A stretch of DNA of 64,000 nt, from positions 124,001 to 188,000 of the forward strand of contig JBDSQB010000005.1 in the NCBI GenBank assembly GCA_039930045.1, written 5' to 3'. The translations under genes were made by a program, and so were the position numbers. Numbering within the stretch: position 1 is the first letter of the stretch; each line of letters starts with the position of its first letter. The notes under the pieces were generated by a model. It saw nothing but the letters and a program-made list of their open reading frames with translations. It had not been told where the DNA came from and did no database searches. Shown in pieces: positions 1,105 to 44,784 of the stretch. Origin of the DNA: Chthoniobacterales bacterium. Its GTDB lineage: Bacteria; Verrucomicrobiota; Verrucomicrobiia; Chthoniobacterales; DASVRZ01.

Positions 1105-2076
1105 TCAATTCGAGGGCTGGGAAAGAAGCGTGTCGGCTTGCGGCGTGCGCCAGTCGGCGAGACCGAAGACGCGCACGCGCTGGTTTTTGCCTTTGAGTTG
1201 ACGCTCCCCGAGGTCGTTCAGGGCGGGTTGCGGACGAAGTTCATTCGCAAAATCTTCGGAGAGAACGATGTCCTGGTTTAGCTCCTTCATCACCGATTCG
1301 AGCCGGAAAGCCGTGTTCACCGCATCGCCGATAATCGTGGCATCGCGCTGGGCCACGAGTCCGATATTTCCACAAGTGACCGGGCCAAAGTGCAATGCGA
1401 CTCCCACGCGAAACCGTGCATCCGTCTCCAGCCAGGTGCGCTTCTCGGTTGCCGCGAGAAACTTCTGCCCCACAGCCAGCGCGGCGGCGCATTCGACCCC
1501 TGAGATCGTGCCCTGACTCGGCTTCGGCCAGTAGGCGAGAATGGCGTCGCCGATAAATTTATCAATCGTGCCGCCGGAGAGATTGACGATATTTCCCGCC
1601 TCCGCAAACCAGCTCCCGAGGCCGCGCGCCAGCAGATCGGGAGTCGTCGTTTCCGCCACGGTGCTGAACCCCCGGATGTCGCAGACGAGGATCGCCACGT
1701 GCTGGATCGACGAATCCGTGCCCGCTCCAGTCGTGCCAATGGTCACATCGACGACGCCATCGCCATCTGAGTCGCCTTCTTCAAAGGTCTCGAAACGCAG
1801 CTCGTGATTGGAAATGCGGATCACGGCATTTTGCTCGAGCGTCACCGGAGTAACAACGCGATGGCCGTTGACATAGGTCCCGTTGCGACTGCCGAGATCC
1901 ATCAATTGATATTGAACTCCGTTGAAGCAGCGAATGAGCGAATGCTGCCGCGAGACGCGCGGATCGGACGACAGACAGACCGTGTTGTCCGGCGTGCGGC
2001 CGATGGTGGCGGTGTTGCCGATAATGATTTCAAAAGGTTCCCCGGAAGGCGGCGAAACGTGGACGCGGGCTGGCAT
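1105..2076 (-). CDS. FHA domain-class III adenylate/guanylate cyclase
   Basis: A 323-aa soluble signalling protein. Residues 1-97 form an FHA phosphothreonine-binding domain (IGR at 25-27, SRQH at 42-45, GSRNGT at 62-67). Residues 125-300 form a class III nucleotide cyclase catalytic domain with metal aspartates in CDIRGF (D133) and GDAILA (D177), a purine-selecting Lys (K173), and the TIIGDAVNTAFRLE block carrying substrate Asp and catalytic Asn/Arg. All key residues are present, so it should be active, probably making cAMP. It is divergent from a Ser/Thr kinase gene 99 bp away, which could supply the phosphothreonine ligand (inference). The ubiE gene follows immediately. Confidence 0.88.
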   Translation of the reverse strand: MPARVHVSPPSGEPFEIIIGNTATIGRTPDNTVCLSSDPRVSRQHSLIRCFNGVQYQLMDLGSRNGTYVNGHRVVTPVTLEQNAVIRISNHELRFETFEEGDSDGDGVVDVTIGTTGAGTDSSIQHVAILVCDIRGFSTVAETTTPDLLARGLGSWFAEAGNIVNLSGGTIDKFIGDAILAYWPKPSQGTISGVECAAALAVGQKFLAATEKRTWLETDARFRVGVALHFGPVTCGNIGLVAQRDATIIGDAVNTAFRLESVMKELNQDIVLSEDFANELRPQPALNDLGERQLKGKNQRVRVFGLADWRTPQADTLLSQPSN

Positions 2077-2175
2077 GGGGCAGACATTGCACGATTTCGC
2101 CAGTGGTGTCCATCGGTGCGACTTGCGAAGCGACGTTGCATTTCTCCCCGTGAGCGGATTACATCACGGGCACCA

Positions 2176-4350
2176 ATGGCCGAGGCGCAGCGATTCCAGC
2201 ATTACGAAGTCGAGATGAAGCCCGATGGCGCTCCCTTCGAGTTGGGTCGGGGCGCGATGGGGATCACTTACAAAGCCTTCGACACCAACTTGCGCTGTCC
2301 CGTCGCGTTGAAAGTCATCACGCATAGCTACCTCGGCAGCGAGGTGGCGCAGCAACGTTTCTTTCGCGAGGCACGGGCAGCGGCGGCGTTGCGGCACCCA
2401 AATGTCGCGTCGGTCTTCCACCTCGGGCAGGAGGGCGAAAATTTCTTCTACGCGATGGAGTTCGTCGAGGGCGAAACCGTGGACGCGCTCCTGCGGCGCG
2501 AAGGTCCGATCCCGGTAGCGAAAGCTCTGCAGATCGCACTGCAAGTCAACCGCGCGCTGGGCGCCGCCGACAAACAAGGCCTCGTCCATCGCGACCTCAA
2601 GCCAGCCAACATCATGATCCAGGCCGACTCGGAGAACGAGCTGCTGGTGAAATTGATCGACTTCGGCCTGGCCAAATCCGCCGTGCGCGACGCCAGCGAA
2701 GCGACGATCACGATGCAGGGTTTCCTCGGCACGCCGCACTTTGCCAGCCCGGAGCAACTCGAGGAAAAAGACGTCGATATTCGGTCCGACATTTACTCTT
2801 TGGGCGTCACGCTCTGGTGCATGTTGCTGGGGAAAACGCCCTACTCCGGCTCGCTCGCGCAAGTCATGAGCCAGCATCTTTACAAGCCGGTGCCGCTCGA
2901 TCAACTCGTGGGTTTCAGCCCGAGCGTCGCCGCCTTGTTGCGTCACATGCTGGAAAAAGACCCGGCCCGGCGTCCGCAGAATCCCATGGAACTCCGCCGG
3001 GAAATCGAGGACTGCCTGGAGACGCCGCAACTGCAAGCTCCGTTGGCGGCCGCGAGCATGGAAAACTTCGAGACACTCGCAGAAACCATCGCCGAACCAC
3101 TTCAAACACCCGCCGGAGCACTTCAAACACCTGCCGGAGTGGTTCAAACGCCTGCCGGAGCGGTTCAAACACCTGTCGGAGCGGTTCAAACACCTGTCGG
3201 AGCACTTCAAACACCTGCCGGAGTGGTTCAAACATCCGCCGGAGTGCGCCAAACGGGAAAAGGAGTCGTCTTGATCCTCCTCGCGTTGCTCTTTTTCGGG
3301 GCTCTCGGTGGTGGAGCCTGGTTGGTCTTGCAGAAAATCCTCCAGCCACATTCGACTCCGACTCCCATCGCGGAGGCGACGCCCACGGCGACTCCCGTAG
3401 TTGCCAGCCCGACGGCGACTCCGATCGTTGCCACGCCTCTGCCGACGCCGGACCCGGAGGCGGTGTTTCAGGAGGCATTCGCTCGGGCGCAATCGCTCAA
3501 TTCCGATGGAACTCAAGCGGCGGCCCAGATGCAGGCTTATCTCGATTTGCTCCAAAAATACCCCGGTCGGAGTGAGATTCGCACGCGGCTCGAAGGCATG
3601 ACGGCGCGTCTCATTCGCGACGAATCGCCCTTGGCGCCCGGCGAGTTTGAGAAACTCCACAGTGCATTGGAACTCGCCGCCAAGTCGGGCATCGTTCGCG
3701 CCGAATTGTTGCTCGCGCAAAACATCCGCGCCAACGAACCGGATCGTGCGCTGGATTTATACGAAGCCGTCGCCCGCACCGGCGATGTCTCGGCCATGCG
3801 CCAAGGCGGGCTGCTTTACTCCAATCGCAATCGACCCGGCGACATGCTGCGAGCCGTGGGGTTGTTTGAGCAAGGGGCCGCGCTGGGCGATGCCGGTTGC
3901 AAACTGGCCGCCGGCGAGACGTATCTGCTGGGCAAAGGCGTGCCGCGCGACGTCTCCAAGGGACTCGCCTACCTGCAGGAAGCCGCTGCCAGCGACGAGC
4001 CGCGCGCCTGGGATAAATTGGGCGATTACTACAATCGCGAGAAGGATTTCCCGAAGGCGCTGGAGGCATTTACGCGGGCTCGCGCCCTCGGCTGGACTCC
4101 GGCGCTGGCGAATCTCGGTGCGCTTTATATCAATGGCAGCGGGGTGCCGTCCGATCCAAAGCAGGCCGACGCGCTCTTCGCCGAAGGGGCCGCGAAAGGC
4201 GATGCGCGGGCGATGTTTTTTCATGCCCAATGTCTGCAATCGGGCTTGGGCACGACGAAAAATCTGGAGGACGCCCGCTCTTGGTATCGCAAGGCGGCGG
4301 CTGCCGGAGACAAGCGCGCGGCGGATTGGCTGGAGAAAAACGGCGGATAA
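2176..4350 (+). CDS. membrane-anchored Ser/Thr protein kinase with Sel1 repeats
   Basis: A 724-aa Hanks-type kinase. The kinase domain (residues 20-280) shows the glycine loop GRGAMG (25-30), VALK (Lys46), HRDLKPAN (138-145), DFG (162-164) and a GTPHFASPEQL activation segment. Residues 309-357 are seven-residue tandem repeats built on QTPAG, followed by a single membrane helix (about 364-385), a Thr/Pro-rich linker, and an extracytoplasmic part with several Sel1-like repeats that normally bind proteins. The ATG at 2176 was chosen because it sits just before the kinase domain; the frame stays open upstream but that part has no domain and crosses the divergent cyclase gene. The FHA-cyclase is a plausible partner (inference). 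Confidence 0.9.
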   Translation: MAEAQRFQHYEVEMKPDGAPFELGRGAMGITYKAFDTNLRCPVALKVITHSYLGSEVAQQRFFREARAAAALRHPNVASVFHLGQEGENFFYAMEFVEGETVDALLRREGPIPVAKALQIALQVNRALGAADKQGLVHRDLKPANIMIQADSENELLVKLIDFGLAKSAVRDASEATITMQGFLGTPHFASPEQLEEKDVDIRSDIYSLGVTLWCMLLGKTPYSGSLAQVMSQHLYKPVPLDQLVGFSPSVAALLRHMLEKDPARRPQNPMELRREIEDCLETPQLQAPLAAASMENFETLAETIAEPLQTPAGALQTPAGVVQTPAGAVQTPVGAVQTPVGALQTPAGVVQTSAGVRQTGKGVVLILLALLFFGALGGGAWLVLQKILQPHSTPTPIAEATPTATPVVASPTATPIVATPLPTPDPEAVFQEAFARAQSLNSDGTQAAAQMQAYLDLLQKYPGRSEIRTRLEGMTARLIRDESPLAPGEFEKLHSALELAAKSGIVRAELLLAQNIRANEPDRALDLYEAVARTGDVSAMRQGGLLYSNRNRPGDMLRAVGLFEQGAALGDAGCKLAAGETYLLGKGVPRDVSKGLAYLQEAAASDEPRAWDKLGDYYNREKDFPKALEAFTRARALGWTPALANLGALYINGSGVPSDPKQADALFAEGAAKGDARAMFFHAQCLQSGLGTTKNLEDARSWYRKAAAAGDKRAADWLEKNGG
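3100..3246 (+). repeat. in-frame 21-bp tandem repeat array (7 units)
   Basis: Seven consecutive units of exactly 21 bp begin at 3100, 3121, 3142, 3163, 3184, 3205 and 3226; an eighth at 3247 is degenerate. The shared core is TTCAAACACCTGCCGGAG. In the kinase frame each unit encodes seven residues containing QTPAG or QTPVG, placed between the kinase domain and the membrane helix. Units differ by only a few substitutions and no indels. The period matches two intergenic arrays at 22.9 kb and 40.5 kb. Confidence 0.95.
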
Positions 4351-22888: not shown

Positions 22889-22924
22889 CGGGTGATATGG
22901 CAGTCCCGTCCCGAGTTACGGCGG

Positions 22925-23239
22925 AACGTATGCCCGGCAGCGCAAAGTGGTTTAGCGCGAGCAAAAAGATGTTTCCCCGAGCCGGAGACATGGTTCCTGA
23001 GGGCGAATCCACGGTGCTCCAGCTCCCGGACACGTTACCCGGCGGCCAAGACAGGTTTCCCGAGCCGATGGACACGGTGCTCAAGCCCGTAGACACGTTG
23101 CGCATGGGCAAAGACACAGTCCCTGATGGCACGGACACGTTTTTCCGGCCCCTCCACACGTTCCCCGACCCCGCAGACACGTTCCTCACCCCCCAAAACA
23201 CGTTTTCCGTTCGGATGACCAATTTGGCGCAAGTGCTTG
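22925..23239. repeat. 21-bp periodic array with conserved core and variable remainder (about 15 units)
   Basis: Units start every 21 bp at 22925, 22946, 22967, 22988, 23009 and so on to 23219, with no insertion or deletion. The core is close to ACACGTT preceded by G or AG (GGACACGTT, AGACACGTT), and the remaining 12-14 bp differ between units. The best units are 23030-23218; the first three and last one are weaker. It fills the 374-bp gap between the 3' ends of the hybrid kinase and lnt genes. It is open in several frames only because 21 is a multiple of 3. No promoter, terminator or gene was recognised in it. Confidence 0.92.
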
Positions 23240-23262
23240 GGAAGAGGGGAGTTGCAACGAAA

Positions 23263-24768
23263 TCACCGTCCGGGGTGCACTCGCCTAGCGCATCGACCAC
23301 CGGTGAGCCAGCGGCCCAGCACCCAGGCGGCCCAGCCGATGGGGAAAAGGGTTCCCCATTGTTGAAAAAAGGTCGGGGCCGGGTGGGCGCGGAAGGCGAT
23401 TTTGCCGGTGAGGATGCCGGGGTGGCCGGGCTCGAGTTGTTGCAGGACGCGGCCCTGGCGGTCGATGAAGGCGGTGACTCCGGTGTGCGCGCAACGGATG
23501 AGGGGCAGGCCGGTCTCGGGGGCGCGAAAGAGGGCGTTCTGGAAGTGCTGGCGCTCGACCACGGGGTCGGCGAAGAGGCTGTCGTCGGTGAGATTGAGCA
23601 GGATGTTGGCTCCGGCGGCTGCGTTGTCGCGGGCGAGCGAGGGGAGGGTGTCCTCGACGCAAATGAGCGAGCCGAGCCGGGTGTCGCTGCCGATCAGCCA
23701 GAGCGGCGCGGAGGAGGTTCCTCGGGAGAAATCGCTCTCGTAGAAGGGGAGCAAGTGGCGTTTCCGATAGGTCTGCATCCCCCGCCAGCCGGGCGGGAAG
23801 GCAAAGGCGCTGTTGTAGGAGCCGTCGGGCGAATGTTCCTGACTGCCGGTGATGAACCACACAGGGACGTTTTCCAGATCGAGATCGAACTCGACTGCGA
23901 GCTTTTTCAGGACCGGGAGCGAGTCGAGGAGGGGAGCGCCGGGGGCGGATTCGGGCCAGACGATGAGGTCGGGATTTTGCAGAAGCGCGAGGGTGCTGAG
24001 GTGCATGTATTCGCGGAGTGGGTCCTTGGCCGTCGCCGCCTGGACGAGGGAAACTTTGATCTCGCGGTCGTTGGTGTGATCGAAGGAAAGGCTCACGCCA
24101 TAGCCAAACGACCCGAGGACGAGCGCGAGGCCGAAGGTGAAATCAGAGCGCGAGGCGAAGGTCAGCCGGCCCGCCTCGGCGATGAGGCGCGAGATGGTGG
24201 TGACGACGATGACGTTGCTAAAAACGATGAGCCACGAGAGGAATGGAACTCCGCCCACGGAGGCGAGCTGGAGAAACGGGATATTGGTATGGAGCGCGAC
24301 TCCGAGGCCGTTCCAGGTCATGCCGCCAAAGAGGCAGCCGCGCAGCCATTCCAACAAAGCCCAAGCCGAGGCGAGGGTGATCGCGACGGCGAGACTGGTG
24401 ATAGATCGACGCCACGGGGATTGGCCGGGCACGAGCTTCGAGAGCGGAATGCGGCACGCTGGCAACCCCGCCAGCCAGGTCCAGATCGCGGGGTAGATGG
24501 CAAGGTAAACGGTGAGGCCGAACCAGCCCGCTGCGGTGACTTTTCCCAGCCAGAAGAAGGTCATGCCGAAGAAGAAGACGCCGCCGAGCCAGCCGACCAG
24601 GAAGCGTTTGGAGCCAGATAATTTCCCAAACCACGCCGCGCAAAGCAGGGGAATGAGTGCCAGCCATACCAGCCAGTCCTGCTCATACGGCGCGAAGCTG
24701 AAGGTGAGCATGATCCCGCTGAAAATCGCCGCCAGCCACGGCCAGGAGTTGCGGAGGAAAAGTTTCAT
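23263..24768 (-). CDS. lnt: apolipoprotein N-acyltransferase (Lnt)
   Basis: A 501-aa inner-membrane enzyme that adds the third acyl chain to lipoproteins. The N-terminal half has about six to eight membrane segments; the periplasmic nitrilase-like domain carries the catalytic Glu (VWPESAPGAP), Lys (YRKRHLLPFYE) and Cys (LICVEDTLPSL). Length is typical. Its presence confirms a Gram-negative envelope and fits the lipoproteins encoded elsewhere in the window. The gene is divergent from the helicase gene. Its 3' end abuts a 21-bp repeat array. Confidence 0.94.
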   Translation of the reverse strand: MKLFLRNSWPWLAAIFSGIMLTFSFAPYEQDWLVWLALIPLLCAAWFGKLSGSKRFLVGWLGGVFFFGMTFFWLGKVTAAGWFGLTVYLAIYPAIWTWLAGLPACRIPLSKLVPGQSPWRRSITSLAVAITLASAWALLEWLRGCLFGGMTWNGLGVALHTNIPFLQLASVGGVPFLSWLIVFSNVIVVTTISRLIAEAGRLTFASRSDFTFGLALVLGSFGYGVSLSFDHTNDREIKVSLVQAATAKDPLREYMHLSTLALLQNPDLIVWPESAPGAPLLDSLPVLKKLAVEFDLDLENVPVWFITGSQEHSPDGSYNSAFAFPPGWRGMQTYRKRHLLPFYESDFSRGTSSAPLWLIGSDTRLGSLICVEDTLPSLARDNAAAGANILLNLTDDSLFADPVVERQHFQNALFRAPETGLPLIRCAHTGVTAFIDRQGRVLQQLEPGHPGILTGKIAFRAHPAPTFFQQWGTLFPIGWAAWVLGRWLTGGRCARRVHPGR

Positions 24769-39971: not shown

Positions 39972-39990
39972 ATTGTTAGTTGTTTCTTTT

Positions 39991-40100
39991 CGTTCCCAAA
40001 CTCCGTTTGGCAACGCACTTGCCGGTCAAACTCTGTTTGAAGGCGAGGAAACGGAGTTTCCAAGGCCAAGGCATTCCCAAACCGGAGTTTGGGAACGAGG
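39991..40100. repeat. palindromic interspersed element, copy 2
   Basis: Outer arms CGTTCCCAAACTCCG (39991-40005) and CGGAGTTTGGGAACG (40083-40097) are complementary. Inside are smaller hairpins: CAAAC-TCC-GTTTG, CAAAC-TCT-GTTTG and GGAAAC-GGA-GTTTCC. The segment GCGAGGAAAC-GAGTTTCC-AGGC is shared with copy 1 at 32069-32148. It looks like a cluster of REP-type palindromes. Confidence 0.78.
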
Positions 40101-40114
40101 GTCGAGGAGAAGCT

Positions 40115-40339
40115 TCACGCGGCGGCGTTAAAGAGCTTGCGTTCCCGGTCGGCGGCGAAAGCCCGACACGCCTTGGATGTCCTCACGAGTTAGCTCAGAG
40201 AAATCGGCCAAAATCTCTTCCTCAGACATGCCCGAAACCAGATACTTCAGCACGTCGTAAACCGTGATCCGCATCCCCGAATACACGGCTTGCCACTGCT
40301 CTTGCCCGGCTCAACCGTGATCAGGTGCTCATAGTTCAT
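40115..40339 (-). pseudogene. DUF433 (VapB45-like) pseudogene with two frameshifts
   Basis: Read from the ATG at 40337-40339 the frame gives MNYEHLITVEPGKSSGKPCI then breaks. One base appears to be missing at about 40274-40278; in the next frame it continues MRITVYDVLKYLVSGMSEE and FSELTREDIQ. One extra base at about 40169-40175 restores the frame to AFAADRERKLFNAAA and a stop. The three pieces together cover a whole DUF433 protein of 74 aa. DUF433 proteins are usually antitoxins paired with a DUF5615 PIN-like toxin; no such partner gene is present here. Confidence 0.85.
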
Positions 40340-40537
40340 GTCGGAAACCTATGCGTCCAGCGAAGATTGAGCAAGCGCGCGTCCATGTCTCACTAGAAGG
40401 GTAATAGTTATCCATGGAAGCTAGTTTGAATCGAATCCTGGGGATCTGTAAAAAAGAAGAACCGTCAGACCCGTTTCCTGCAAATCTGAGTGCAGTTCGC
40501 GAGAAAAATGAGCCCGCTGCCCTTAATTTCATGGAAA

Positions 40538-40831
40538 CGGACGAAAATCAGCATCAGACGGACGGATTTTGGCTACGGGCGGACGAAAAAGCAGGCAGGG
40601 CGGACGAATTTGCGACTTCCGCCAACTAAACAGGAACCTCCGCGAACCAATTTTGAGAGCGCGCGACCGAATTACGGCATCGGACAGACCAATTCGCAAC
40701 CCAGACGGACCAATTTGCACCCCGCGCGGACGAATCCGCAAGGCGGACGGACGAATTACGGAGGCTCGCGAACGAATTCGCAGGCGGGACGGACGAGTTG
40801 CCGGTGCGGACGGACCCGTTTGTTGGCCCTT
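40538..40831. repeat. 21-bp periodic array with conserved core and variable remainder (14 units)
   Basis: Fourteen consecutive units start at 40538, 40559, 40580 and every 21 bp to 40811, with no indel. The core is CGGACGAATT (also CGGACCAATT, CGAACGAATT), followed by about 11 bp that vary from unit to unit. The last unit ends 4 bp before the stop codon of the minus-strand lipoprotein gene. A stray similar unit may exist near 40466, out of phase. The remaining part of the gap (40340-40537) shows nothing recognisable. No CRISPR-like or iteron-like neighbours were seen. Confidence 0.95.
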
Positions 40832-40835
40832 CGCC

Positions 40836-41345
40836 CTAGTTCCAGAGGAACGACTGATTCAGCGCGACGATTTGGCCGTTTTCGATCAGGATCGCGCGCC
40901 AGGCGGTGACGCGGCCGTCGTCCGAGTAATCGTCGCCGATGACGGCGAAGTCGGTCCGGTGCGCGCCTTTCGCCTGCAGGTAGGTGATCTCGCGGGCTTG
41001 CACGTAGTTGCCGAGCTTCTCGGTGCGATACTCGAGGCGCAGGGTGAGGTCGGCCTGGCGGTGGGCGCGCCAGTAGAAGGTGAAATAATTTCCCCGGCGC
41101 GCGAGCACGTCGGTGTTGTCCACGGCTCCGAAGTTGATCTTTCGCAGGCGGGCGTTGAGCATTTCGTTGCTAGTTCGCTGGCGCACGTCGCTGTTGAGAA
41201 AGAGGCTGGTCTTGCGAAACTCGAAGTCGTCGCTCAGGGCGAGCGGCAGGACGTTGACCTTGGCGAGGGACACGGGCCGAAGCTGGGTGGTGGTGGTGCA
41301 ACCCGCCAGCCAGACAAGCGCAAACAAGAGGGCGATCCGTATCAT
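40836..41345 (-). CDS. lipoprotein of unknown function
   Basis: A 169-aa protein starting MIRIALLFALVWLAGCTTTT with a clear lipobox (LAGC). The mature domain has strands typical of small envelope proteins (YFTFYWRAHRQADLTLRLEY, YLQAKGAHRTDFAVIGDDY). The start was placed at the signal peptide, 78 bp inside the longest frame. It is divergent from the nuclease-ligase gene. Its 3' end abuts the 40.5-kb repeat array, reminiscent of the array at the lnt 3' end. Function unknown. Confidence 0.78.
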   Translation of the reverse strand: MIRIALLFALVWLAGCTTTTQLRPVSLAKVNVLPLALSDDFEFRKTSLFLNSDVRQRTSNEMLNARLRKINFGAVDNTDVLARRGNYFTFYWRAHRQADLTLRLEYRTEKLGNYVQAREITYLQAKGAHRTDFAVIGDDYSDDGRVTAWRAILIENGQIVALNQSFLWN

Positions 41346-41446
41346 TTGTGGACGATGAAAGCGATTTCCCCCGACGGTGACAACTGGAATTTCCACCTGC
41401 CGGGGGCGCGATTTTCGTGGCATGTTTTTCCCATGACCGGCTGCCC

Positions 41447-44089
41447 ATGATTGATGTGCGTTATCACAACGGGGTCTATCTCCCGGCGCACGACCTCTGG
41501 CTCGACCCGCAGCGGGATCAGGATTTTGCGTTCGTCAGCCACGCTCATGCCGACCATATCGGGCGTCATCGGGAGGTGATTTTTTCCGCGAACACAGCCC
41601 GACTGATGCGCGCGCGGCTGCCGGGGGAACGCATCGAGCACGTCCTGGAGTACGACACGCCGGTGGAGTTTCGCGGGGGCACGGTGCGCCTGCTTCCGGC
41701 GGGTCACATCTACGGCTCGGCGCAATTCCACTACGAGACCGAAGCCGGGTCGCTCCTTTACACAGGCGACTTTAAGCTGCGTCAGGGCAAATCCGCCGAG
41801 CCCGCAGAGTGGCGTTCGGCGGACATCCTCATCATGGAGACGACATTTGGCCTGCCGCGCTACGTGTTTCCGCCTGCGGAGGGGATATTGGAGGACATCC
41901 GGAAGTTTTGCATCGAGGCGCTGGAGGAGGGCTACGTGCCCATTTTGCTGGGCTATTCGCTGGGCAAGGCGCAGGAAATCCTCGCCGCGCTCCAGCCGCT
42001 CGGCGTGCCGGTAATGCTCCACGGCGCGGTCTGGCGAATGACGAAGCTCTACGGCGAAATGACGGTCCGGTTCCCGGAGTTGGAGCTCTATCAAGCTGGT
42101 GCGGTGCAGGGGAAAATCCTCATTTGCCCGCCGAGCGCGAACCGCTCGATCATGCTGAAGAAGATCAAAAACCGGCGCGTCGCCATGCTCTCGGGCTGGG
42201 CGCTCACGCCGGGGGCGATCCATCGCTACCAATGCGACGCGGTGTTTCCGCTTTCCGACCACGCCGATTACCCGGATTTGTTGCGCTACGTGGAACTCGT
42301 CCGACCGAAACGCGTGCTGACGTTGCACGGCTTCGCCGAGGAATTTGCCGCCGATCTGCGGGCGAGGGGAGTGGAAGCGTGGTCGCTCACGGGTCACAAT
42401 CAATTGGAACTCAGTATCGCCCTCGGCGGCATCGCGGAGATTCCAATGGAACTCGAATCGAAAAAAAGTGAGGGGAGTTTCAGTCGATTCTGCGCTGTCT
42501 GCGACCGCATCGCCGCCGTCACGGGCAAAAAGGAAAAAATCCGGCTGCTCGCGGAATTGCTGCAAAGCCTGCCGCCGGGGGAAGCTCCGCTCGCTGCCGT
42601 GTTTCTCACCGGACGCGCCTTTGCCCAGAGCGATCCGCGCGTCCTGCAAGTCGGCTGGGCGCTGATCCGCCGCGCCGTGATGCTGGCCGCGGGCGTGTCC
42701 GAAGGGGAATTTCGCGCGAAAACCAGCGGGCTGGGGGACATCGGCAAGGCCGTTCTCATCGCGCTCGCCGGTCGCGCGGGCACGGGTGATTTCTCCCTGA
42801 CTCAAGTCGCCGACGCCTTTGCTCGGCTGGAACAAACCCGCGGCCCGACTGCGAAATCCGCCGTGCTGCGCGAGATATTGATGGAACTCGACGCCACCGA
42901 GGCCGCGTATTTCGTTCGCATCCTCACGAGCGACTTGCGCATCGGACTCAAGGAAGGCCTCGTCGAGGAAAGCATCGCGGAGGCATTTGGAGTCGCGGCG
43001 GACGACGTTCGCGAGGCGAATATGCTCACCGGAGATTTGAGTCAGGTCGTTATCTTGACCCAAGAAAACCGCCTTGCCGACGCGGGCATCCAGCTTTTTC
43101 ACCCGGTAAAAGTGATGCTCGCCTCGCCCGAACCGACTGCCGAGGCGATCTGGGAACGCTTCGGTCCCGCCGCTGCCGACGGCGTGCTGGTCGAGGATAA
43201 ATACGACGGCATCCGCGCCCAGATTCATCTCGATGGCACTCGCACGGAGCTGTTTTCGCGCGATCTGCGCCCGATCACGAATCAGTTTCCCGAGCTGGCG
43301 GTGGCGTTTGCGACGTCAGCGATTTTCGATGGGGAAATTCTGGCGTTTGCCGAGGGCAAGGCGCTGACGTTTTTCGATTTGCAGAAACGGCTCGGGCGCA
43401 AAAGCCACGCCGATCTGTTTATCGACTCGGATATTCCGGTCGTTTTCACCGCGTTCGACTTGCTCTATCTGGACGGAAATTCCTTGCTGAAGACGCCGCT
43501 TGCCGAACGTCGTTCCCTCCTGAAAACACTGCAACTCCCGTCACCTTTTCGGCTGGCCGAAGCGACGCTGGTGCGTTCTGCCGATGAAATGGAGGCCGCC
43601 TTCATAGCCGCCCGCGCCCGCAGAAACGAGGGCTTGATCGTGAAGGACGCGACAAGTTTTTATCTCCCGGGACGGCGCGGCGGAGCCTGGTATAAATTGA
43701 AAAAGGAGCTCGCGACCCTCGATGTCGTGGTCACTGCCGTCGAGCAAGGCCACGGGAAACGCAGCCATGTTTTGAGCGATTACACGTTCGCCGTTCGCCG
43801 CGACGGGACGGAGGAATTGCTCACCATCGGCAAGGCGTATTCGGGCCTCACCGACGTTGAAATCGAGGAACTGACGGCGCACTTTGAGTCGAATGTGATC
43901 GGTCACTGGGGTCACGCGCGCCTCGTGCAGCCGGACATTATATTGGAAGTCGCCTTTGACTCGATCCAGCCGAGCAAGCGCCACCCAAGCGGACTCGCCA
44001 TGCGTTTCCCCCGGATCAAGGCCATCCGCCGCGACAAAACCCTGCGGGACATCGACACCCTGAGCTTTGCAAAAAGCTTGGTGGGATAA
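41447..44089 (+). CDS. fusion of MBL-fold exonuclease and ATP-dependent DNA ligase
   Basis: An 880-aa fused protein. Residues 1-335 are a metallo-beta-lactamase/beta-CASP nuclease of the ligase-associated exonuclease type, with HAHADH (32-37), PAGHIYGSA, TGDFK and the C-terminal block LSDHADYPD. Residues 340-880 are an ATP-dependent DNA ligase with N-terminal binding domain, adenylation Lys585 in EDKYDGIR, and later motifs DGEIL, EGLIVKD and WYKLKK. In many bacteria these are separate neighbouring genes, together with a helicase and a phosphoesterase. The likely role is DNA end repair. The MIDVRYHNG start gives the family N-terminus. Confidence 0.92.
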   Translation: MIDVRYHNGVYLPAHDLWLDPQRDQDFAFVSHAHADHIGRHREVIFSANTARLMRARLPGERIEHVLEYDTPVEFRGGTVRLLPAGHIYGSAQFHYETEAGSLLYTGDFKLRQGKSAEPAEWRSADILIMETTFGLPRYVFPPAEGILEDIRKFCIEALEEGYVPILLGYSLGKAQEILAALQPLGVPVMLHGAVWRMTKLYGEMTVRFPELELYQAGAVQGKILICPPSANRSIMLKKIKNRRVAMLSGWALTPGAIHRYQCDAVFPLSDHADYPDLLRYVELVRPKRVLTLHGFAEEFAADLRARGVEAWSLTGHNQLELSIALGGIAEIPMELESKKSEGSFSRFCAVCDRIAAVTGKKEKIRLLAELLQSLPPGEAPLAAVFLTGRAFAQSDPRVLQVGWALIRRAVMLAAGVSEGEFRAKTSGLGDIGKAVLIALAGRAGTGDFSLTQVADAFARLEQTRGPTAKSAVLREILMELDATEAAYFVRILTSDLRIGLKEGLVEESIAEAFGVAADDVREANMLTGDLSQVVILTQENRLADAGIQLFHPVKVMLASPEPTAEAIWERFGPAAADGVLVEDKYDGIRAQIHLDGTRTELFSRDLRPITNQFPELAVAFATSAIFDGEILAFAEGKALTFFDLQKRLGRKSHADLFIDSDIPVVFTAFDLLYLDGNSLLKTPLAERRSLLKTLQLPSPFRLAEATLVRSADEMEAAFIAARARRNEGLIVKDATSFYLPGRRGGAWYKLKKELATLDVVVTAVEQGHGKRSHVLSDYTFAVRRDGTEELLTIGKAYSGLTDVEIEELTAHFESNVIGHWGHARLVQPDIILEVAFDSIQPSKRHPSGLAMRFPRIKAIRRDKTLRDIDTLSFAKSLVG

Positions 44090-44102
44090 AGAAAAGGCTT
44101 GT

Positions 44103-44128
44103 GGAGTATGGCAACGATGCCATACTCC
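44103..44128. promoter_or_regulatory. inverted repeat upstream of vapBC, probable operator
   Basis: GGAGTATGGC and GCCATACTCC form a perfect 10-bp inverted repeat around a 6-bp centre, ending 4 bp before the antitoxin ATG. VapB proteins normally bind such repeats to repress their own operon. Confidence 0.7.
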
Positions 44129-44132
44129 TAAC

Positions 44133-44393
44133 ATGAAAATGACCATGCACATCGATGAAGAGCTTCTCGACAGAGTCATCAAAGTCACCGGCGCCGCCAG
44201 CAAGACCGAAGCTGTTAACATCGCCCTCCGGGAGATGGACCGGAAAATCCGGCTCGCGGAGTTTGGCAAAAAAGGACTCGGCCTCACCAAGGCAGAGATC
44301 CGGGCCGCGGTCGCCGAGGACGACACGATGTTTTTGCGGGTGGCGGAAGAGCCTGCGACGCCTTCTCCCATCAGAAGAGCCAAGAAATCCTAA
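44133..44393 (+). CDS. vapB: VapB-type antitoxin
   Basis: An 86-aa antitoxin with an N-terminal ribbon-helix-helix (MKMTMHIDEELLDRV, KTEAVNIALREM) of the DUF2191 type and a C-terminal tail that would wrap the toxin. It should bind DNA as a dimer, probably at the inverted repeat just upstream. The start was placed at MKMTMHIDE; an upstream frame is open but crosses the operator. The PIN-domain toxin gene starts 4 bp downstream. Confidence 0.88.
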   Translation: MKMTMHIDEELLDRVIKVTGAASKTEAVNIALREMDRKIRLAEFGKKGLGLTKAEIRAAVAEDDTMFLRVAEEPATPSPIRRAKKS

Positions 44394-44397
44394 CATT

Positions 44398-44784
44398 GTG
44401 ATCCTGGTCGATTCGTGTGTTTACATCCGGTTGCTGCGGGCCGATCTGGACCCGGCACGCGAATTGGCCGGGCTCGCGATGGAGGACGAACTGGCGACTT
44501 GCGGCGTGATTCGCTGTGAAGTCCTGCGAGGCATGCGCACGGCGAAAGCGCGCAAGGCTTTGGCGGCTTATCTCGATTGCATGCTCTACATTCCGACTTT
44601 GAACACAATCTGGGAAAAGGCGGAAGACCTGCTCTGGGAGATCGATCGCACCGGGTTTCACATCCCGCTGCCGGATGCGGTCATCGCCGCGAGCGCGCTG
44701 CATGTGGGAGCCACGGTGCTAACATTCGACGGCCACTTTCAGCACGTGCCGAAACTGGCAGTTCGCAGCGACTACGAGACTTAG
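44398..44784 (+). CDS. vapC: VapC-type PIN-domain toxin ribonuclease
   Basis: A 128-aa PIN-domain RNase. The four acidic catalytic residues are intact: Asp5 (LVDSCVYI), Glu41 (CEVLRG), Asp93 (LPDAVIAA) and Asp111 (TFDGHF). It starts with GTG, 4 bp after the antitoxin stop, so the pair is co-translated. VapC toxins usually cut tRNA or rRNA; the target here is unknown. Confidence 0.9.
   Translation: MILVDSCVYIRLLRADLDPARELAGLAMEDELATCGVIRCEVLRGMRTAKARKALAAYLDCMLYIPTLNTIWEKAEDLLWEIDRTGFHIPLPDAVIAASALHVGATVLTFDGHFQHVPKLAVRSDYET

Follow-up and report, generated by a model that had tools for sequence, protein, structure and literature searches.

The window, that is, the whole 64-kb stretch of DNA analysed, contains a tandem array of short units (array A) just beyond the 3' end of a minus-strand ORF, from which it is separated by a gap of 4 bp (Table 1). 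The initial annotation had given its coordinates, a count of 14 units, a period of 21 bp and zero indels, all of which were correct, with 14/14 units lying in 21-bp register. Its intergenic location likewise held, as the array lies between ORFs and the ORFs that cross it are without a Pfam match. TRF detected the array in parts only. Terminator-like hairpins in its vicinity were not above the level of shuffled sequences (2 found versus 1.6 expected). The remaining features listed for the window include a palindrome-rich stretch, an apparent broken small gene, a nuclease–ligase fusion and a VapB-like antitoxin with an overlapping partner.

Each unit had been described as carrying the same core at the same place. 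The register of the core is indeed exact, but its sequence is degenerate (CGRACSAATT): the exact form CGGACGAATT is present in only 2/14 units, and with up to two mismatches it is found in 12/14, the core of unit 5 (CCAACTAAAC), like that of unit 14, being badly degraded. The other 11 bp were said to change from unit to unit; they are variable, but not fully random, with an identity of 0.35–0.39 as against 0.28 for the bulk composition.

Table 1. Positions of array A, its surroundings and the other repeats described in the text (window coordinates unless a different sequence is named).
Feature	Location	Strand	Description
Array A	40538..40831		14 tandem 21-bp units, consensus CGRACSAATT plus ~11 variable bp, zero indels
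Unit 1 of array A	40538..40558		CGGACGAAAATCAGCATCAGA; near-identical to unit 1 of array B (CGGACGAAAATCAGGATCGAG)
Exact core CGGACGAATT	40601..40610; other exact copy 40748-40757		
Unit 14 of array A	40811..40831		Core CGGACCCGTT badly degraded; 4 bp short of the neighbour's stop codon (40836-40838)
Neighbouring ORF, 195 aa	40836..41423	minus	N terminus resembling that of a lipoprotein (by eye); GC by codon position as in a real gene; no Pfam family
Weak terminator-like hairpin	40465..40489	minus	On the far side of array A as read from the minus-strand gene
Palindrome-rich stretch	39980-40110		Several CCAAACTCCGTTTGG / AAACGGAGTTT copies, like a REP-type intergenic repeat
Apparent broken small gene	40110-40345	minus	Resembles a short antitoxin-type protein in pieces (by eye), between array A and the palindromes
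890-aa fusion ORF	41417-44089		Metallo-beta-lactamase/RMMBL nuclease region plus full ATP-dependent DNA ligase (PF04675, PF01068, PF04679)
VapB-like antitoxin (PF09957)	44067-44784		Followed by an overlapping ORF resembling a putative PIN-domain partner
21-bp coding repeat	3083-3271	plus	Within ORF 1804-4350, linker after a kinase-like domain (by eye), units TTCAAACACCTGCCGGAGCGG
Divergent 21/42-bp periodic region	22968-23219	plus	CACGTT..CC, within ORF 22897-24621
Array B	G000:C2:173065-173337 = L005 6066-6338		13 units of 21 bp, 13/13 in register, no indel
21-bp array L181	L181 9575-9763		Imperfect TTCC..GGAA inverted repeats in the units; z of about -3.3 for RNA folding
42-bp arrays	L192 6255-6464; L195 11963-12172; L227 13482-13712		Two 21-bp unit types in alternation
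Treponema saccharophilum plasmid pTS1 array	L271 2997-3258		Unannotated 21-bp array CGGACGGACTTCATCCCAAGT, lying in a gap and starting directly behind the stop codon of the DUF1963 gene

A second array and the test of chance periodicity

The genome to which the window belongs (3.52 Mb, 23 contigs) was searched for three core copies at 21-bp spacing. Exactly one further array with the core CGRACSAATT was obtained (array B), which overlaps the dprA stop codon and lies upstream of a gene for a FAD/Rieske oxidoreductase; neither a looser two-copy pattern nor a profile built from A and B returned any other array in this genome. The genes neighbouring the arrays comprised an Hsp33-like ORF, an uncharacterised ORF, the ligase fusion, DprA and the FAD/Rieske oxidoreductase. 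When all 27 units (A and B together) were considered, the information per column was 1.2–2.0 bits at positions 1–5 and 7–9, 0.75 bits at position 6 and about 0.05–0.9 bits at the remaining positions.

Although the first units of A and B are alike nearly letter for letter, colinear homology of the two arrays was rejected, with spacer identity remaining flat over all register offsets. Unit identity was 0.38 between the arrays and 0.35 and 0.39 within them, and adjacent units of either array were no more similar than distant ones. Given that neighbouring units are no closer than distant ones and that the likeness between arrays equals that within them, neither a recent duplication of units nor their homogenisation is indicated. 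The two arrays have one core but no unit order in common, and homogenisation of whole units therefore fails to account for the core.

Chance periodicity, or an ordinary minisatellite decaying without constraint, is an extremely improbable source of array A. Within a span of 290 bp, the match averaged over lags 21, 42 and 63 reached 0.51, compared with a maximum of 0.34 among 60 Markov copies of the entire window, and array B is an independent array with the same core. Neutral duplication trees were simulated at five divergence levels (150 each), and a contiguous core of nine columns was contrasted with the other columns: although 16% of the trees at the lowest divergence reached the overall column variance of array A, 0/750 matched its core-versus-rest contrast.

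Arrays with a 21-bp period in this and other genomes

A census of periodic lags was carried out at a threshold of 0.47 over 477 kb of the same genome (the window, the L005 region with array B and 400 kb of stretches unselected for repeats). It returned 11 regions at lag 21, two at lag 12 and one each at lags 15 and 30, with none at lags 16–20 or 22–29; some of the lag-21 regions were coding (window 3083 and 22968). The favoured period also occurs in the form of coding heptapeptides (window 3083-3271). When five relatives were sampled (398 kb), one lag-21 region was obtained at the same threshold.

About nine non-coding arrays with a period of 21 or 42 bp and differing cores were present in an 864-kb unselected sample of the genome, from which a total of about 37 was estimated by extrapolation; at lags 20 and 22, no arrays were detected in this 0.86 Mb. 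The non-coding arrays of the 477-kb census had the cores TTCCAG...GTGAG (L185), CCAGCGACG (L177), TTCC...GGAA (L181) and AGA.CGCTAAAACTT (L190), or alternated two 21-bp unit types with a period of 42 bp (L192 and L195; Table 1). A further 400 kb beyond this census yielded the 42-bp alternation of L227 and one TATGTTTG array, of which the genome contains three (on C10, C16 and C23). An AT-rich tract of the curvature type was considered as a property common to the arrays and rejected, as the AT content of the cores ranged from 0.08 to 0.75 without a rule. The L195 units, which fold strongly, contain the short dyads GGAANNTTCC and GCAGNNCTGC.

No convincing CGRACSAATT array was found in 213 genomes of the same order or 384 genomes of the same class, none of which belonged to the same family. 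Within the order, seven other genomes each gave one to three matches to the core pattern, always at the mismatch limit, and these matches look like other repeats or chance; the A+B profile gave one borderline match outside its own genome among the 384 class genomes. To these searches a comparison of dprA loci was added, for which 30 were fetched and 18, including that of the own genome, were readable by script (dprA was missed in 12/30). Within the 18 readable loci, a 21-bp array behind dprA was present in the own genome alone. An ancestral array beside dprA was rejected, the relatives with a locatable dprA having no 21-bp array after this gene.

A degenerate three-core pattern, biased by its design towards cores resembling RTN codons, was then applied to 84,980 species and matched 99 loci, against about 0.1 expected (as estimated from the pattern length). 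Most of these loci were ordinary tandem repeats with near-identical units, and 53 of the arrays were called coding by the ORF method because stop-free units create false ORFs. In the flanks of the 99 loci, which lie outside the pattern selection, 21 was the commonest period (8/22). Several arrays from Bacillaceae (L048, L049, L054, L074, L097, L101 and L112, from Metabacillus, Rossellomorea, Fictibacillus and Bacillus sp. V5-8f) combine a conserved CGGACAAAT with near-random spacers (identity about 0.35–0.5) at a 21-bp step. They resemble array A in their short CGGAC.AAT core, spacer divergence and period; this likeness of the cores was imposed by the search pattern and provides no evidence of common descent. 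Unlike array A, the Metabacillus arrays also contain 18-bp steps, and a Salsuginibacillus array shows units that are more alike, with 20-bp steps mixed in. Metabacillus mangrovi (L048, L101 and L111) carries long arrays in which 21-bp and 18-bp spacings follow a semi-regular order (18,21,21,21,21). The annotated Treponema saccharophilum plasmid pTS1 supplies an independent case of a 21-bp array, and six places on it are similar to this CGGACGGACTTCATCCCAAGT array.

Coding potential, RNA structure and substitutions in a duplicated array

The initial annotation had considered a heptapeptide gene. In such a gene, the plus frame would encode a small repetitive protein of RTNxxxx repeats. A period of 21 bp does equal seven codons, and the RTN frame is open through both A and B (P=0.10 and 0.14 by spacer shuffling). 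Codon usage nevertheless makes such a gene very unlikely: in the 27 units, the core arginine codons are CGG (18) and CGA (6), never CGC or CGT, and asparagine is encoded by AAT (19), never AAC, with AAA (Lys) in four units, so that the restriction acts on bases rather than on residues. Pfam matches are absent from the frames through array A, the RTN frame is broken by stops in 6/7 of the Bacillaceae arrays with the same core pattern, and no frame is open in all three TATGTTTG arrays. Moreover, per-column counts revealed no third-position excess of substitutions in the one frame that is open in both of the duplicated TATGTTTG arrays on C10 and C16.

A role at the RNA level is also unlikely, if less so. 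A transcript of array A, for instance a 3' UTR of the minus-strand gene with AAUUSGUYCG as its repeated motif, would then offer repeated sites that bind, or as a sponge sequester, an RNA-binding protein or an sRNA. The positions of the arrays are in keeping with this proposal, as A starts 4 bp past the stop codon of the minus-strand gene, B overlaps that of another minus-strand gene and the Treponema plasmid array starts right behind one; in addition, 52-nt satellites of B. coagulans were reported to be transcribed. However, the C10, C16 and L177 arrays, from the same genome, are placed upstream of genes, and the preference for 3' ends elsewhere is weak, with 20 of the 99 foreign loci nearest to a 3' end versus 10 nearest to a 5' end, which is not significant. 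A single-stranded RNA would have no obvious need for an exact 21-bp spacing. RNA structure, which also bears on the source of small RNAs named in the initial annotation, was not detected in A and B, which folded slightly worse than shuffled sequences on both strands (z +0.4 to +1.5), and Rfam gave no match to array A at the gathering score or at E values up to 1. In contrast, good folding was obtained for L181 and L195 (z about -3.3 to -4.5), so that RNA or cruciform structure is not the property that the arrays have in common.

A direct comparison of core and spacer was provided by the TATGTTTG arrays on C10 and C16, which lie upstream of duplicated genes and were copied along with them (BLAST alignment of 997 bp at 81%). 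Colinearity extends over 12 units (-4 to +7) with no indel, and two 3-base gaps are located immediately outside the array. Between the copies, 9/96 cells in core columns had changed, compared with 52/156 cells in variable columns (Fisher p=9e-6); outside the array, the corresponding values were 38/105 for adjacent plain intergenic DNA and 37/294 for coding DNA. When the non-array part was split in the same manner, the fractions were 0.17 and 0.20. The low rate in the core, together with the similar rates in variable columns and plain intergenic DNA, shows that the TATGTTTG core is selected and the rest drifts. Purifying selection thus acts on the core of this family, and the rate of change in its spacer is close to that of plain intergenic DNA. 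In the C23 array, which lies outside the duplicate pair, the core columns are again conspicuous. The claim that half of the unit is constrained is supported by the neutral simulation for array A and by the duplicated sister array for the TATGTTTG family. As the duplication test was made on the latter, arrays A and B being without a colinear duplicate, the same selection on their cores is presumed.

These data also bear on an explanation by satellite dynamics, in which a replication or recombination machinery working in 21-bp steps would make and spread units without benefit to the host, and the core would persist because it is recognised by this machinery. The occurrence of several lineage-specific families per genome, with one period and unrelated sequences, agrees with this explanation, as do the dispersed same-core arrays without a common unit order and the arrayless dprA site of the readable relatives. 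We consider it rather unlikely all the same, because the spreading of whole units should homogenise the spacers, whereas these are close to random and proximity does not make units more similar. The point-by-point conservation of the C10/C16 core, with unit order kept, looks instead like selection on standing sequence.

Relation to known repeats and proposed mechanism

Plasmid oriV iterons and ParR/TubR centromeres consist of direct repeats with a conserved core and helical phasing that are bound by one protein. Array A is similar in its direct repeats, conserved core and helical phasing. Unlike iterons, it is not accompanied by a gene for replication or partition in the immediate neighbourhood searched, and many arrays with different cores are distributed over a chromosome-sized genome; a plasmid or phage origin was rejected, as array A had no match in plasmid or phage DNA. 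CRISPR arrays likewise have a conserved repeat, a variable spacer and constant spacing. Their repeats measure about 23–50 bp, with spacers of similar length, and the 10-bp degenerate core and 11-bp spacer of array A are far too short for this class.

Bacterial constant-length tandem repeats of 20–21 nt were reportedly described by Subirana and Messeguer in J Bacteriol in 2020. Bacterial repeats of constant length (20–21 nt, or 52 nt) are non-coding and form several families per genome, which are unrelated in sequence, mostly species-specific and each provided with a short conserved signal; their function is unknown, and a scaffold for nucleoid proteins or a source of small RNA was suggested (Subirana and Messeguer, IJMS 2021, PMC8161180). 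Repeats of this kind have been called 'enigmatic' in bacteria. The statement that array A is not a named element stands insofar as searches of Rfam, Pfam and of plasmid and phage DNA gave no match, but its class is in print. Array A is a new family within this described, unexplained class, all testable features of which it displays. Repeat length is homogeneous, at 21 bp in 14/14 units of A and 13/13 of B. The non-coding nature is reflected in the position of A between ORFs, in frames devoid of Pfam matches and in constraint at the nucleotide level. Several families of the same length coexist (about nine arrays in 864 kb), and a short sequence is conserved, CGRACSAATT in A and B and other cores elsewhere. 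Species specificity is indicated by the lack of a convincing core in the 213 order and 384 class genomes, none of the same family. The published repeats were detailed for Bacillus at 20–21 nt, whereas those studied here come from another lineage and measure exactly 21 bp, with almost random spacers and some 42-bp alternations of two unit types; this comparison is based on the published description.

Of the readings offered in the initial annotation, the protein-binding scaffold remains the likeliest. Our preferred, still tentative reading is that array A may well represent a series of repeated DNA recognition sites that lie on one face of the helix and are cooperatively bound by a predicted protein partner. 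Each unit would consist of a single short recognition site, CGRACSAATT, and a spacer of about 11 bp. Because a step of 21 bp corresponds to two helical turns, all sites would be placed on the same side. A sequence-specific DNA-binding protein would occupy the array cooperatively, and its occupancy would serve local nucleoid structure or a boundary beside genes. That the partner is a protein, and that it binds DNA rather than RNA, is predicted, as is the effect of binding. The observations in support are the exact spacing, the second, dispersed array with the same core, the numerous arrays that have this period but differ in core, and the selection on the TATGTTTG core.

What the arrays have in common is the 21-bp step, without a common composition signal. 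It counts against this reading that several unrelated cores in one genome would require either several proteins or one that reads something besides sequence. Against helix phasing stand the Bacillaceae arrays with mixed 20/21 or 18/21 spacings, as an 18-bp step loses the helix phase; the 18/21 pattern of Metabacillus mangrovi is not accounted for by phasing alone. In view of the hairpin signal in L181 and L195, the class of arrays may also be mixed. A more general proposal, that every 21-bp family provides a dedicated docking strip for an oligomerising DNA-binding protein, either one private to the family or one shared between families, appears somewhat doubtful. The arrays would then form a chromosome-wide scaffold with universal spacing and lineage-private sequence, the core being held by purifying selection and the spacer left free.

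To the known class of repeats, the present analysis adds core families in another lineage, a sharp lag spectrum confined to 21 and a duplication test. With an extrapolated total of about 37 arrays, two or more core families each represented by more than one array, and a natural duplication, this genome offers a handle on the function of such satellites, and the C10/C16 duplication permits a position-wise comparison of core and spacer. If the core is a docking site, its partner would define a new level of chromosome organisation or regulation, one that occurs in many phyla.
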